Assembly (NCBI GenBank): GCA_937919205.1 | Contig: CALFOZ010000232.1 | Location: forward strand, 1-39,857 | DNA length: 39,857 nucleotides | Reading direction: 5' to 3' | Source: an uncultured Planctomycetia bacterium | GTDB taxonomy: Bacteria; Planctomycetota; Phycisphaerae; Phycisphaerales; SM1A02 | The notes under the pieces: generated by a model | What the model was told of the DNA's origin: nothing | Databases searched by the model: none | What the model saw: only the letters and a program-made list of their open reading frames with translations | Shown: positions 14,184 to 34,380 of the stretch, one piece after another | Layout of the letters: the number at the start of each line of letters is the position of its first letter | Position numbering within the stretch: position 1 is the stretch's first letter | Program-made: the position numbers and the translations under genes

Positions 14184-15656
14184 TTATTGCTTGGCGGCGG
14201 GTTGCATGAAGGCAACAACCGGATCAACTACGGCGCTTGGAACGCCCCATGAATTTTCAGATTGGTTGAAAATATAAATGAATCCTGGTGTCGAAAGATC
14301 TTGCGCGCCTGGCGCGCAAACGGCGATTCGATTTGTCGTGCAAGCAAGAGCCGCGCCAAATCGCGCGTGTACGTTGGACTGCGCAGGAACAAGGGTGATT
14401 AAAAATTCTTCTTCCTTGGGGTTCGATCCAGGAATGATTTGATACACATACACCACTCCCGCCGCGGATTTGTCGGCGTGCATTTTCATGGGCGCGCCAA
14501 TGACAAAGTGTGTCCCCGCGATTCCCACCGCACTGCCAAAAGCCGCATTCGACTCCAAATCCTCAGCAATTATATATTGGATTTGGCTCCAAGTTTGTTC
14601 TTCGCGTTCAAAAAGATCCACCGAGCCATTGCCGGCGTAGTTTCCCTGGCTGTCTCCGGGCGCGCCCACCAAGGCAATATTTCCAAACATGCACACCGAC
14701 CAGCCAAAGTGATCGCCCGTTCCGCCCATATGTCCTCCGACGCGATCTCCTTTGTACAAGATATTGCTCGTGTCAGATATTTGCACAAGCGGGGTCGGGG
14801 GCCAATGTGATTTGTAACGTAAAAAAATATTTGCTATGCCAAGCTCATTTCGATCCGACGCACGCGCATATGGAGAGCCAATCAAAGCTTGGGTGGCTTT
14901 GAGCGATATAGATGAGCCAAATTGCGCATTTGCAATAAGATCATTTGGGTTTAAGGTTGAGCTTTCAGACCATATTCCTTCTGAGTCGCGCATCCATGTG
15001 ATTACTATTCCGTGAGCCGCAACTTCGCTCAATGTTGCAAAAGGCGCCCCGGCAAGGAATGTGTCATCATCAATTGCCACGGCGCGGCCAAGCAAAGCAT
15101 TGGAGGAAACCAAGTCGCTCGAGAATGAGCCGCTATACACCCACTTGGATTCCACTTTTTCCCAAAGATGCACCGCGCCAACGTTGGGCAGATTGCCCAC
15201 ATTTGTATTGGGAGCTCCGACAAGGATAAATCTTCCAGAATTGGAAATATCGACCGCCGATCCGAACGCATCGCCGGTTGAAAGATGTGGTGGAACTAAT
15301 TTAAGGGGCGAAGTAGTTGTGGTTGCCAAATCAAATACCCAAACGGCGCCACCGCCAGTTGTGTTTGGCGCGCCCACCACCAACGTATCGAGCGCCATTG
15401 CCACGCAAGCCGCAAATTGATCGTTGGATTGTTGCGAGGGGGACGCAATGATTTGATTTTCGGTTGCGCTTGGCAACGTGATGACGGGTTCAATGATTGG
15501 CTTGATTGGTGTGATTTCGGCTATGCCAATCGCTAATGGATATAAAGGCGGAGGTTGGCTTTCGATGCACGAGATCAAGGTGATCATGGCGATCATGGCG
15601 ACACACACTTTGAAATGGGTACTCCAAGCGTATTGTCTGAAAATACTTATAGGCAC
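14184..15656 (-). CDS. FG-GAP repeat beta-propeller lipoprotein
   Basis: The 490-residue protein starts with a signal peptide ending in TLISC (Cys30 is the likely lipidated residue), followed by a proline-rich spacer and then about six or seven repeats of the type GDAFGSAV...[16 protein letters not shown]...IAVCAPGAQ and AFGSAVGI...FVIGAPM. These are FG-GAP repeats, as in integrin-alpha-like seven-bladed propellers, often used for surface adhesion or scaffolding. No enzyme domain is present. The GTG start has TAGACT 6 bases upstream and no Shine-Dalgarno. It is divergent from the MsrB-MsrA gene. Confidence 0.85.
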
Positions 15657-15662
15657 ATGCGC

Positions 15663-15668
15663 AGTCTA
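15663..15668 (-). promoter_or_regulatory. Putative -10 element (TAGACT) of the FG-GAP gene
   Basis: TAGACT on the minus strand ends 6 bases before the GTG at 15656, which puts the transcription start at the first base of the start codon. Confidence 0.45.
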
Positions 15669-15693
15669 GCGCCATCGAAGGCCCGATTGATCA

Positions 15694-15722
15694 TTGGAAG
15701 ACTTGAAAGATTGACCTACTAT
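15694..15722 (+). promoter_or_regulatory. Putative promoter of the msrB-msrA gene
   Basis: TTGGAA (15694-15699), a 17-base spacer, then TACTAT (15717-15722). Transcription would start near 15729, only about 3 bases before the ATG at 15732, so the mRNA would have almost no leader. Confidence 0.45.
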
Positions 15723-15731
15723 CATTCTGCC

Positions 15732-16850
15732 ATGCAAGTTCGCAAGCAAGCCACTATTTACATTGTCGCCACACTCACGCTTGTGTGTATGGTTGCAAGT
15801 TTTGCGATGTCATTTGATGATCCACCTTCAACCCTAGAGATTTCTATGAAGAGCAAGCCCCGCACACTTTCCCGTAGTGGTTACAACATCGCGCCTTTGT
15901 CCAAGGAGAAGGTTGCGGAGTTGGCCAAAAAATTAACTCCCGAACAATTTAAAGTAACGCAGAAGGCGGGTACCGAGCCAGCATTTTGTGGCAACTTGCT
16001 CGACAACAAAAAAGACGGCGTGTATTACTGCGTGGTTTGTGGATTGCCGCTGTTCTCAAGCGAAAATAAATTTAATTCAGGCACGGGTTGGCCTAGTTTC
16101 TTCTCGCCATTTGATCCCGACCATGTGGCGTATAAAAAAGACAATGAGTTTGGCATGGAGCGCGTGGAGATTGATTGCGCCCGTTGCGACTCGCATCTTG
16201 GCCATGTGTTTGAGGATGGACCCAAGCCAACGGGTCTGCGCTATTGTTTAAATTCGGCGGCGTTGGAGTTTCATGAAAAGGGATCAACGCTTGCACCAGA
16301 ATGTTTGCCAATGCAACTGAAGACGGCCTATTTCGCGGGCGGATGTTTTTGGGGAGTGGAGCATTGGTTTCAGGAATGCCCAGGCGTGGCGGATGTTTCC
16401 AGTGGATACATGAATGGATCCACAGAGAATCCAACATACGAAGATGTGTGCTCGCATAAAAGTGGGCATGCCGAAGCGGTTCGCGTGACATACGATCCGG
16501 CGAAGGTGTCCTATCAACAATTGCTTGATGGATTTTTTCGCCTGCATGATCCAACGCAATTGGATCGACAGGGTCCGGATGTTGGCGATCAATATCGATC
16601 GGCTGTGTTCACCACGGATCAGGATCAGTTGGCGCAAGCCAAAGCGTTTACGGCCGCCTTGCAGTTGTCGCCACGCTACGCGGGTAAAAAAATTGTGACC
16701 GTGATTGAGCCCGCCAAAAAGTTTTGTGCCGCGGAGGGATATCACCAGGATTATGTCGAGCGAACAGGTCGTGCTTGCCATGGAGTGAATCCGTGGCCTG
16801 CGGTGTTCGCCGAGAACAAAGAAACGCCAGGCGTGAAGAGTGCGCCGTGA
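15732..16850 (+). CDS. msrAB: Fused peptide-methionine (R)- and (S)-sulfoxide reductase (MsrB-MsrA)
   Basis: The 372-residue protein joins two repair enzymes that reduce oxidised methionine. An N-terminal hydrophobic segment (about 8-26) suggests export or membrane anchoring. MsrB follows (about 48-185) with the zinc cysteines C100, C103, C149 and C152 and catalytic Cys172 in RYCLNSAA. MsrA (about 195-355) has catalytic Cys205 in [14 protein letters not shown] and the family-typical GDQYRSAVF and EGYHQDY. The order MsrB then MsrA is the reverse of the more common MsrA-MsrB fusion (Neisseria PilB type). The start at 15732 was chosen over an upstream frame that overlaps the divergent gene. The stop shares one base with the next start (TGATG). 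Confidence 0.93.
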
Positions 16851-28620: not shown

Positions 28621-29628
28621 ATGGCAGATCGCAAACAACGTTTCACTGGTCCAATTGTTGGCGTGGATTTGGGCGGCACCAACATGAGCATTGGTGTGAT
28701 TGATGAAAAAGGAAAAATTGTTGGGCGTACACGCCGCAAGACCAAGGCCGCCGAGGGCCGCGAGAAAGTCCTCACTCGTATAGTTGAAGGTATTGAGCGC
28801 GCATGCGAAGACGCAAAGTTGTCCATAAAAGATATTGAGGCCGCCGGTATTGGCGCGCCAAGCGCGGTGGATTGGGACAAGGGCAGTGTGATCCACGCGG
28901 GCAATCTTGGATGGAAAAAAGTTCCCCTGCGCGACATCATGTCAAAGAAATTGGACATGCCCGTGGTGGTGGACAATGATGTGAATGTGGCGGCGTTTGG
29001 CGAAAGCCGTTTGGGCGCGGGTAAAAATCGCGGCGATTTGTTGGCCATGTGGATTGGCACCGGCATTGGTGGCGGGATGATTCTAAATGGAAAATTGTGG
29101 CGCGGTCCGTTTTACACGGCTGGCGAAGTTGGACATGTTGTGCTTTTCCCGGGCGCAGGTCCGGGCCATCGAACGCTGGAAGATCATTGCAGTCGCACGG
29201 CGCTTGTGCGTAGCATGATGATGTTGCTTGGGCACTATCCCGACAGCATGTTGCGCGAATTTTTAAACAAGGAAAAAGACGACGAGGGCAAGCCCGATCC
29301 ATCCGCGATTGGAAGCGGCGTGCTGGCGGAGTGCTATTCCAAAGGCGATCCGCTTGTGCGCAAGGTGGTTGATGCGTCGGCTGAATTGTTGGGTCTGACC
29401 ATTGCCAATCTGACTACTGTGATGAGTTTGCAAACAGTGGTGCTGGGCGGCGGCGTGTCCGAGGCGCTTGGAAAGCCATATCTGTACCGCGTGCGCGAAA
29501 GTTTTGAGCGCGTGGTGTTTCCACAAACATTACAGCGATGCGAAATTGTTCCAAGTCAATTGGGCGATGACGCCGGCATGTTGGGCGCGGCGCTTCTGGC
29601 GCGTGAAACATTGAGCGAAGAAAAATAA
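28621..29628 (+). CDS. ROK-family sugar kinase (glucokinase-like), zinc motif absent
   Basis: The 335-residue protein has the ROK ATPase fold: VGVDLGGTNMSIGVID (phosphate 1), GIGAPSAVD, the catalytic Asp120 in VVVDNDVNVAA, IGTGIGGG (phosphate 2) and GEVGHVV with the sugar-binding Glu169 and His172. Family members phosphorylate glucose or related sugars. The CxCGxxGCxE zinc motif that normally follows GEVGH is missing; only Cys190 is nearby, so zinc binding is unlikely. The C-terminal half is complete (VVLGGGVSEAL). The gene is alone on its strand, with a putative leaderless promoter, and converges on the NIF3-family gene. Confidence 0.9.
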   Translation: MADRKQRFTGPIVGVDLGGTNMSIGVIDEKGKIVGRTRRKTKAAEGREKVLTRIVEGIERACEDAKLSIKDIEAAGIGAPSAVDWDKGSVIHAGNLGWKKVPLRDIMSKKLDMPVVVDNDVNVAAFGESRLGAGKNRGDLLAMWIGTGIGGGMILNGKLWRGPFYTAGEVGHVVLFPGAGPGHRTLEDHCSRTALVRSMMMLLGHYPDSMLREFLNKEKDDEGKPDPSAIGSGVLAECYSKGDPLVRKVVDASAELLGLTIANLTTVMSLQTVVLGGGVSEALGKPYLYRVRESFERVVFPQTLQRCEIVPSQLGDDAGMLGAALLARETLSEEK

Positions 29629-29721: not shown

Positions 29722-30639
29722 CTATGCGCTGTGAAGCGGATGTCGATCGCGTTTGCTCACCAACAAACGAACCTGCGGCACATGCGGTTGCAATTGCTTG
29801 GCAAAGTGCGGCAGAAATCCGCGCTCGGAATTTGTGTGGCCAAGCAAAATTATGTCGCAATTCATTTCGCGCGCGTGGATCACATCGTGGTGCTTGGCCT
29901 CGCCGGTGACCATGAGCGTGCAACCGGCCTCGATTGCCATTGTCAGCAAACTGGCGCCTGAGCCAGGAACCACCGCGACGCATGTGTGGCGGCGCGATTT
30001 GTTGAATTCGCAATAGTTCACATCGCCGGCGGAAAGTCGTAGCGAGGCACGCAATTGTTTCGCTATGGCGCTTGTTGTTCGGGGCTTTGCAAGCGTGAGC
30101 GCGCGACCTTGGCCATGAACTTGTGCTTGAACTCGACCTTGACCCTGACCTTGACCCTGATTGCGAAACAGGCCTTGAACTTGCGCTTGGACTTGATCTT
30201 GCCCGCGCGCCGACGCATGCAAGTGATTCACTTGCGTCGCCGGCGAATTTAAATTTGTTGCTGGCTCCAACGCCACGCGCGCACCTGCATCAATCATGTC
30301 GGCCAGCCAATCGGTCATGCCGCCACACACCGCGTCAAGCGCCGTATGCGGCGACAAGATCGCGATCTTGTTCTCCGCGCAACGTAGCAAGATTTGCTCA
30401 TGCGCATGCATGGCCGTGAGTTGTTTTAGCGGCTCAAAAATAGGCGGGTGATACGCAATAATCGCCTCGCATTTGGCCGCTATCGCTTCATCAAGCACGT
30501 CAACCGTGAGGTCAATCGTGAGCAAGGCGCGCCGAAGCAAACGCGATGGATCGCCAAGAAGCAAGCCGGTGTTGTCCCACGATGCCGCAAGACGCCGCGG
30601 CGCGACAGCCTCCATGGCCAGCACAAGTTCTCCAATCAT
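29722..30639 (-). CDS. NIF3-family dinuclear metal protein with Gly/Gln repeat insert
   Basis: The 305-residue protein belongs to the NIF3 / GTP cyclohydrolase I type 2-like family. The N-terminal half has SWDNTGLLLGDP, AYHPPIFEPLK with His64, and SPHTALDA with Asp102. The C-terminal half has VVPGSGASLL, VTGEAKHHDV and LLGHTNSERG with His268 and Glu272. The YHPPIF form is like eukaryotic NIF3-like proteins; bacterial YbgI has HH. Residues 145-180, at the junction between the halves, are a Gly/Gln/Arg/Val-rich low-complexity insert. The function of the family is not settled. The start is 33 bases after the Bax-inhibitor-like gene, so they are probably one operon. Confidence 0.86.
   Translation of the reverse strand: MIGELVLAMEAVAPRRLAASWDNTGLLLGDPSRLLRRALLTIDLTVDVLDEAIAAKCEAIIAYHPPIFEPLKQLTAMHAHEQILLRCAENKIAILSPHTALDAVCGGMTDWLADMIDAGARVALEPATNLNSPATQVNHLHASARGQDQVQAQVQGLFRNQGQGQGQGRVQAQVHGQGRALTLAKPRTTSAIAKQLRASLRLSAGDVNYCEFNKSRRHTCVAVVPGSGASLLTMAIEAGCTLMVTGEAKHHDVIHAREMNCDIILLGHTNSERGFLPHFAKQLQPHVPQVRLLVSKRDRHPLHSA
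30111..30203 (-). repeat. Simple-sequence tract in the NIF3-family gene (hexamer-type repeats)
   Basis: On the plus strand the tract repeats CTTGAC/CCTGAC-type hexamers and variants, including a perfect double copy of the 12-mer CCTTGACCCTGA. It encodes the Gly-Gln/Val-Gln stretch in the protein. Six-base units keep the frame, so the length can vary without breaking the gene. Confidence 0.8.
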
Positions 30640-33270: not shown

Positions 33271-34380
33271 TTAATGTATGCGTTTTGCTTTTGGCTTCTT
33301 CAAGTGAGAGTCAATCACAAGTTGAAGCGCAATTTCAAGAGATGCGGAGGCGGTTACGCTTTGTGCGTCGGCGCCGACAACTTTCCAAAGGTCGTCAATC
33401 AGTTGAAATGGCTGACCACCCACTAAAATTGGAATGTTTTTTCCAGCATCCGTGGCGCGAACCATGGCGATGGCATTGTGAACTCCACGAAGGCGCAAAC
33501 TGGTGGAGGCGCTTAAGGCCAAAAGATCCGCGCCGCCACGAAACGCCTGCGGCCCAATGGTGTTGGCAATTTCCTGCGCGGGAGTGTTGGCCCCCAAAAA
33601 CTCCACATTCCAGCCCTCTTTTTCATAAATGGCTGACAGAATTCGAATGCCAAGATCATGCATGTCGCCGCCCACGGATGCGGCAACCATGAGATATCCA
33701 TTGTTAGCTTTGCCCGGAGTCTTGCAACGAAGCGCTTCCAAGATTTGTTGTGTTGCATTGGTGCAATAATGTTCGTCAGCAATGCTGGCTTCTTGCACGT
33801 GCCACATGTGGCCAATTTCCGCCAGGGCTGGCGAGAATATTCCCTCGCATATTTGAGAAAATGTCAGGCCGTTTTTGGACAGATCTAAAATAAAACGCTC
33901 CGCCTCACTGCGATCACGCCGCAGTAAGTGCATCAGATACATGCGCGCCAAGTCGCGAGAAGTTCCCACAATCGACATTGGACTGACCACACATGCTTGA
34001 TTGTTTAGCAACGTTTCAACGGCATGGGTAATGATGGGCGTGGTCAAATCGGAAATTACTTTTGGAAGTTGCTCAATCAAGACGCTCATCATGCACTGTA
34101 AATTTTGGGCTAGATCAGCTGTGTTCATTTCACGGGCCGTGAACGCCGCCTTGGACCACAGCGCGTTGCCAATGAAAATTTGCTCTCTATCCAAAGCCAC
34201 GGCTTCAGCCAAGTGGGCGATTCGCGCAAGCACTTCTTGGTTCCACATGCGCCTACCAGTAGCACCGTAACGCTCCTCCATAGTGGTGTCTTTGCCATAC
34301 TGCTGGTCAACCGTCCATGTGGCAATGGCGCGGCTGGATGACTCAATGAGATCGGCAACTTCAAGTCTGGAAGATTTCAC
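33271..34380 (-). CDS. Cobalamin-binding protein with CarH-type W-x9-EH motif, no DNA-binding domain
   Basis: The 369-residue protein has a helical N-terminal region (about 1-125) that is not a recognisable helix-turn-helix. A four-helix cap of the B12-binding-2 type follows (about 145-225), with Trp193 and Glu203-His204 spaced exactly W-x9-EH as in the light sensor CarH. The C-terminal Rossmann domain (about 228-360) binds B12 with GGDMHDLG: Asp239, the axial His241 and Gly244 form DxHxxG. This combination suggests adenosylcobalamin binding. It could be a light- or redox-responsive regulator acting by protein contacts, or a corrinoid carrier protein. The start is GTG at 34380. It lies 98 bases after the GH15 gene on the same strand. 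Confidence 0.82.
   Translation of the reverse strand: MKSSRLEVADLIESSSRAIATWTVDQQYGKDTTMEERYGATGRRMWNQEVLARIAHLAEAVALDREQIFIGNALWSKAAFTAREMNTADLAQNLQCMMSVLIEQLPKVISDLTTPIITHAVETLLNNQACVVSPMSIVGTSRDLARMYLMHLLRRDRSEAERFILDLSKNGLTFSQICEGIFSPALAEIGHMWHVQEASIADEHYCTNATQQILEALRCKTPGKANNGYLMVAASVGGDMHDLGIRILSAIYEKEGWNVEFLGANTPAQEIANTIGPQAFRGGADLLALSASTSLRLRGVHNAIAMVRATDAGKNIPILVGGQPFQLIDDLWKVVGADAQSVTASASLEIALQLVIDSHLKKPKAKRIH

Follow-up and report, generated by a model that had tools for sequence, protein, structure and literature searches.

A globin-first photocobilin with a CarH-type histidine in a planctomycete genome lacking detected heme oxygenase PF01126

The photocobilins date from 2024, when they were described on the basis of SasPcob (8J2W/8J2X) and AbDPcob/AbPcob (8J2Y), neither of which has the CarH histidine (PMC10979010); in both, a CarH-type cobalamin domain is combined with a bilin-type globin. 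According to that description they fall into three groups, defined in part by the end of the protein at which the AdoCbl domain lies (PMC10979010); since one listed group has a C-terminal AdoCbl domain, the globin-first order is already known. In SasPcob, Asp270 contacts biliverdin rings A-C and Trp296 touches ring D of the bilin as well as the corrin. The SasPcob light-state structure, the sole one presented there for a photocobilin, shows water or hydroxide on the cobalt and only modest movement; the same paper gives evidence for a photocobilin whose target, a separate diguanylate cyclase, is acted upon through protein-protein contact (PMC10979010). A light signature consisting of GxxW, EH, GxxH and GxxxP has been published (PMC11796333). 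In the light state of TtCarH, His132, which lies beside the stacking Trp131, is described as becoming the upper cobalt ligand (PMC10442372); CtMerR has Arg at this position, SasPcob Gln and AbDPcob Tyr, and different photochemical mechanisms were suggested for the three proteins (PMC11796333). Bilin-type globins linked with B12-binding proteins, as is the case here, are also reported among the photoglobins and BBAG-2 globins, whose respective motifs are given as CxQD and RGMC, next to CxRD for the phycobiliproteins (PMC10151467).

The gene under study (33271..34380, minus strand, GTG start, stop included) encodes a protein of 369 aa and is located in what we refer to as the window, that is, the whole stretch of 39,857 nucleotides analysed, from an uncultured Planctomycetia bacterium of the order Phycisphaerales. 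The position of the GTG start is common to this gene and to its full-length relatives L003-L007, the products of which are 74-84% identical to the window protein; five of these six proteins are 369 aa long and one is 359 aa long. Residues 1-128 (33997..34380; all features of the gene are on the minus strand) form a bilin-type globin, or photoglobin, domain delineated by a PDB profile search and a structure model. It is followed by the two parts of a cobalamin domain supported by Pfam, model and structure match: a four-helix bundle (residues 139-222, 33715..33966) and a Rossmann domain (residues 223-361, 33298..33714). The corresponding Pfam matches are B12-binding_2 at 146-217 (2.1e-10) and B12-binding at 231-339 (1.4e-16), and the model of the whole protein has a pLDDT of 92.9 and a pTM of 0.89. 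Given this globin N-terminus and photocobilin-like cobalamin C-terminus, the protein is firmly identified as a photocobilin with the globin first. It differs from SasPcob, whose globin is C-terminal, in its domain order and from both described proteins in lacking a fused enzyme, yet its build is ordinary for the family; what is new in this variant is the ligand set and the bilin-poor background, and it is unusual mainly by a CarH-type histidine switch and by a genome without detected heme oxygenase PF01126. Promoter and terminator scans revealed nothing above chance.

Searches of the PDB sequences with the window protein returned AbPcob (2.4e-19), SasPcob (2.5e-17) and CtMerR (3.1e-12), with a Desulfitobacterium cobalamin protein (4JGI; 3.7e-8) and CarH (7.8e-7 to 1.6e-6) lower in the ranking. 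When the model of residues 139-361 was compared with known structures, the photocobilins scored Z 26.2-26.8 overall (AbPcob 26.8 over 214 residues at 2.2 A; SasPcob 26.5), ahead of CtMerR at 23.8, of methionine synthase and corrinoid proteins at about 22, and of CarH at about 20, a level shared by AerR and AppA. The light signature is complete in the window protein: G190-W193, E203-H204 (33769..33774), G238-H241 and G263-P267. Motif alignment further places the lower-ligand histidine in D239-x-H241-x-x-G244 (33649..33666) and equates W193-H194 (33799..33804) with Trp131-His132 of TtCarH, i.e. with the adenosyl-stacking Trp and the CarH-type upper-ligand His. The conserved W, EH and D/ExH are thus common to the window protein, SasPcob and AbDPcob, and the AdoCbl pocket signature is shared with TtCarH, as is the His at the His132 position, where the window protein departs from SasPcob (Gln) and AbDPcob (Tyr). 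W193, E203, H204, D239, H241 and G244 had been correctly placed by an earlier sequence-only reading, which did not mention that the gene is on the minus strand.

Conservation was assessed in an alignment of 70 rows, 46 from the order and 24 from the rest of the phylum. W193, E203 and H241 are each kept in all 70 and H204 in 68, being replaced by Arg in L054 and L140; the W-x9-EH motif is not a chance occurrence given that W193, E203, H204 and H241 are near-invariant over these rows. A His at position 194 is present in 49 of the 70 rows (27/28 in the family of the window, 9/12 in family f2, 4/6 in families f4-f6 and 9/24 elsewhere). Its absence from the other 21, together with the two Arg substitutions of H204, indicates that only part of the wider family would undergo a bis-His step. 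No report of a globin and a CarH-type His in one protein was met in the consulted passages of the photocobilin and photoglobin papers. We note that the same genome encodes a B12-fold paralogue of 250 aa (P0002; L002:1396-2145, minus strand, contig C55 of G000), adjoining a PP-loop (PF01171) gene, that lacks GxxW/EH as well as the DxH histidine; cobalamin may be bound by it in another way or not at all.

A profile built from residues 1-128 of 32 relatives and searched against the PDB sequences retrieved SasPcob first (1.1e-6), with allophycocyanin beta at 0.02 and AbPcob at 0.039. The globin part was also modelled separately (pLDDT 94.9) and, in VIA comparisons, this model matched allophycocyanin with a Z of 17.7 (2.1 A, 125 residues), residues 225-343 of SasPcob with 17.1 (rmsd 2.0 A, 119 residues) and residues 219-332 of AbPcob with 14.9; allophycocyanin and SasPcob are tied on structure, by which alone phycobiliproteins are not separable. 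Foldseek searches with the model gave no match with E < 0.001 (best 2e-3), and the 50 matches listed are phycobiliproteins, smURFP and SasPcob. Pfam puts no name on the domain, its only match in the window protein being GNA1162-like at 0.17; among the globins of 32 members it found Phycobilisome in 2 (best E 0.0014) and FliG_C in 3 (best 0.029), and Pfam scans of the window protein detected no HTH family. The assignment to the bilin-type globins is accordingly drawn from the profile search and the VIA scores; the N-terminal profile and the model arrived at it independently, through the photocobilin globin and allophycocyanin. The N-terminus had been described from the sequence as a helical sensory module not of the MerR type, for which structure prediction was proposed; the profile search, the model and the VIA scores all bear this out and show the module to be a photoglobin.

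To compare the globin with the bilin pocket of SasPcob, the numbering of the latter was taken as chain index + 6 (Trp61, Glu71 and His72 at index 55, 65 and 66 by our count). E49 then aligns with Asp270, for which the window protein has Glu, and W75 (34156..34158) with Trp296, a residue common to the described photocobilins and the window protein. Position 49 is acidic in 35 of the 70 rows and non-acidic in the other 35 (acidic in 26/28 rows of the family of the window, 1/12 of f2, 2/6 of f4-f6 and 6/24 elsewhere). W75 is kept in 69, the exception being L134, whose start is near a contig edge, and it follows that the corrin-facing Trp is constant while the bilin contact is not. By our placement of the CxRD/CxQD motif, which makes use of the alignment and column counts, the window protein reads W46-N-Q-E49 (34234..34245) where photoglobins have CxQD and BBAG-2 globins RGMC, and Trp occupies the position of the motif Cys in 28 of 28 family rows. 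With no Cys in WNQE, a covalently attached bilin would not be expected at this site.

Photocobilin matches at 1e-20 or better are present in 44 of the 201 genomes sampled in the order, and near-whole-profile matches recur in at least 10 other families of the phylum; the phylum tally of 167/392 also includes matches to the B12 part alone. The gene order in the window is fabF-GH15-photocobilin-PhoH, with the upstream glycoside hydrolase gene (GH15, PF00723; 34479..36494, minus strand) on the same strand and 98 bp before the photocobilin start. GH15 is a possible partner, although the link is unproven: a photocobilin dedicated to this enzyme would, through protein contact, let light or B12 gate how a storage glucan or disaccharide is broken down. 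Both genes are present in 18 family genomes; they adjoin in 16 of these, 15 times on the same strand, and lie on different contigs in the other two (G013 and G111). However, 22 family genomes have GH15 without photocobilin, no GH15 match at 1e-60 is present in eight photocobilin carriers, and three genomes (G120, from the genus of the window, G141 and G153) have fabF, GH15 and PhoH side by side with no photocobilin. Because of these GH15-only genomes and empty slots, the adjacency is explained by shared synteny, and we consider a dedication to GH15 unlikely. A ROK-family sugar kinase gene (28621-29628) is found about 5 kb from that of GH15, and the two may possibly belong to a common sugar metabolism. 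Elsewhere in the window, a single protein (15555-16850) carries SelR and PMSR methionine sulfoxide reductase domains, and a DUF34/NIF3 protein (29722-30639, minus strand) contains Gln/Gly/Arg/Val repeats (GQGQGQGRVQAQVHGQ) in a run that looks inserted.

The photocobilin gene has diverged more than its neighbours in part of the comparisons. Its dS relative to L004-L007 is 1.05-1.21, against 0.18-0.59 for fabF, GH15 and PhoH; relative to L003 it is 0.30 (neighbours 0.30-0.53), within the L004/L005 pair 0.27 (neighbours 0.38-0.47) and within the L006/L007 pair 0.23 (neighbours 0.14-0.21). Such a pattern is compatible with an exchange of alleles, or with gain and loss of the gene, at one fixed slot. 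The dN/dS ratios between the window and L003-L007 are 0.12-0.31 for photocobilin, indicative of purifying selection, and 0.01-0.05 for the neighbours. Among close relatives fabF, GH15 and PhoH are 96-99% identical, against 75-84% for the much faster diverging photocobilin, and the same slot in G120 lacks the gene.

The surroundings of more distant photocobilin genes were compared in a neighbourhood set that leaves out G162, the neighbour clusters being named by Pfam on one member each. Of 36 homologous loci, five were kept out of the A2 alignment: L001, which is the window itself; L009 and L010, whose contigs are by their length those of L003 and L004; the truncated L008; and L025, which has an internal stop. 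In families f4, f5 and f6 and genome G175, an ECF sigma factor and a fasciclin protein are encoded within 8 kb in 5 of 7 loci; the sigma factor gene adjoins photocobilin in four of these five, and RskA-type anti-sigma genes cluster in three. In the other two of the seven, L082 and L086, a GGDEF protein is encoded directly downstream (identified by Pfam at L086 and by clustering at L082). In family f32 (L141-L143) a photocobilin of the same globin-first build is fused to HisKA, HATPase and receiver domains in three proteins of about 800 aa, as determined by Pfam for L141 and by our reading for L142 and L143. These ECF sigma, GGDEF and histidine-kinase contexts of the relatives are signalling ones, and L066, L068, L075 and L083, which combine the sigma factor with fasciclin and in some cases RskA, possibly represent a light-controlled sigma system.

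Heme oxygenase PF01126 was not found in the window genome, which is 95.6% complete. Among the matches listed for 67 genomes of the family, 26 genomes have photocobilin, 21 have heme oxygenase and 4 have both, such that the latter enzyme was not found in 22 of 26 carriers (Fisher two-sided p 0.03, kinship ignored); photocobilin carriers have it in 10 of 12 cases in f2 and 0 of 6 in f4-f6. The lack of a PF01126 match in this genome and in 22 of 26 carriers makes the presence of biliverdin in vivo doubtful. A cobalamin adenosyltransferase (PF01923, 3.1e-57) is encoded in the window genome, and AdoCbl can therefore form if cobalamin is available. Ferrochelatase PF00762 was not found in any of 27 genomes of the family (the 26 carriers and G120) or 12 of f2 and was found in 4 of 6 of f4-f6. 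COX1 is present in all 21 genomes tested, which makes the uptake of heme or a ferrochelatase that went unrecognised likely, and an absence of heme is not claimed. The missing PF01126, along with a bilin-site acid that is not conserved in relatives and a corrin-facing Trp that is, would also suit a sensor of AdoCbl availability, in which the protein reports cobalamin status, light sensitivity is incidental and the globin is a bilin-free lid; the strong conservation of the complete GxxW/EH/GxxH/GxxxP signature speaks against such a sensor and renders it rather improbable.

A corrinoid carrier of a methyltransferase (MtbC/MtgC/MtaC kind), the alternative put forward by the sequence-only reading, shares the B12 fold with the window protein, and NCBIfam MtgC is the best-scoring model of all, but the scores are far below the cut-offs (MtgC 48.3 bits/370, MtbC 43.5/350, MtaC 23.1/420), the W, E and H of W-x9-EH are conserved, a bilin-type globin is present in addition and Pfam found no corrinoid methyltransferase family in any of the 35 listed window frames, so that we reject it as highly implausible; four recurring neighbour proteins were annotated in relatives. 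Membership in CarH was likewise rejected, the NCBIfam CarH model (NF052513) scoring 45.3 bits against a cut-off of 400 and the MerR DNA-binding domain of TtCarH having no counterpart, nor any other HTH, in the window protein; a search for this model in genomes says little, as 0 of 17 family genomes and 0 of 14 control genomes exceeded the cut-off. AerR and AppA signal through a partner, AerR being the antirepressor of the PpsR/CrtJ repressor, and to our knowledge neither contains a bilin-type globin. The comparison with AerR drawn earlier from the sequence holds for the B12-type fold, which AerR (7TE2) and the AppA SCHIC domain (4HEH) have in common with the window protein. AerR as the closest match is rejected: each of the two reaches a Z of 20.1 at 13-15% identity (AerR rmsd 3.5), below the photocobilins. 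A light- or B12-responsive protein devoid of a DNA-binding domain and acting via a partner, as proposed in that reading, is the best and a well-supported interpretation. Of the refuting conditions that the reading had set, a lack of conservation of W193 or EH did not occur, and neither did a methyltransferase neighbourhood as judged from the 35 window frames and the four recurring neighbours of relatives; what the reading missed is the bilin-type globin, the published photocobilin family and the CarH-type His194.

We therefore favour, with a probability of roughly 0.8, a stand-alone photocobilin with an N-terminal bilin-type globin and a C-terminal adenosylcobalamin domain that would operate as follows. 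In the dark, AdoCbl would be bound base-off with H241 below the cobalt, its adenosyl group packing on W193, E203 and H204 at a head-to-tail dimer interface, and the globin would cap the corrin edge via W75. Green light, or longer wavelengths should a bilin be bound, would break the Co-C bond, upon which H194 may ligate the cobalt from above in the manner of CarH His132; the assembly would then come apart and the binding of a partner protein would change. A bis-His light state in a globin-bearing protein is a prediction made by analogy with CarH.

More tentatively, and with odds that we put below even, the photocobilin may be a hybrid photoreceptor in which a CarH His132-type switch gives rise to a bis-His state under a globin cap, and in which the globin is either a bilin-free lid or a receptor for scavenged bilins. 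In this lineage, mostly without detected heme oxygenase, any such bilins would come from other organisms, for instance cyanobacteria. The occurrence of H194 and the globin together in natural proteins bears on which of these two elements sets the size of the light-driven change, and it raises the question of what role the globin plays in genomes in which heme oxygenase, the usual source of biliverdin, was not detected.
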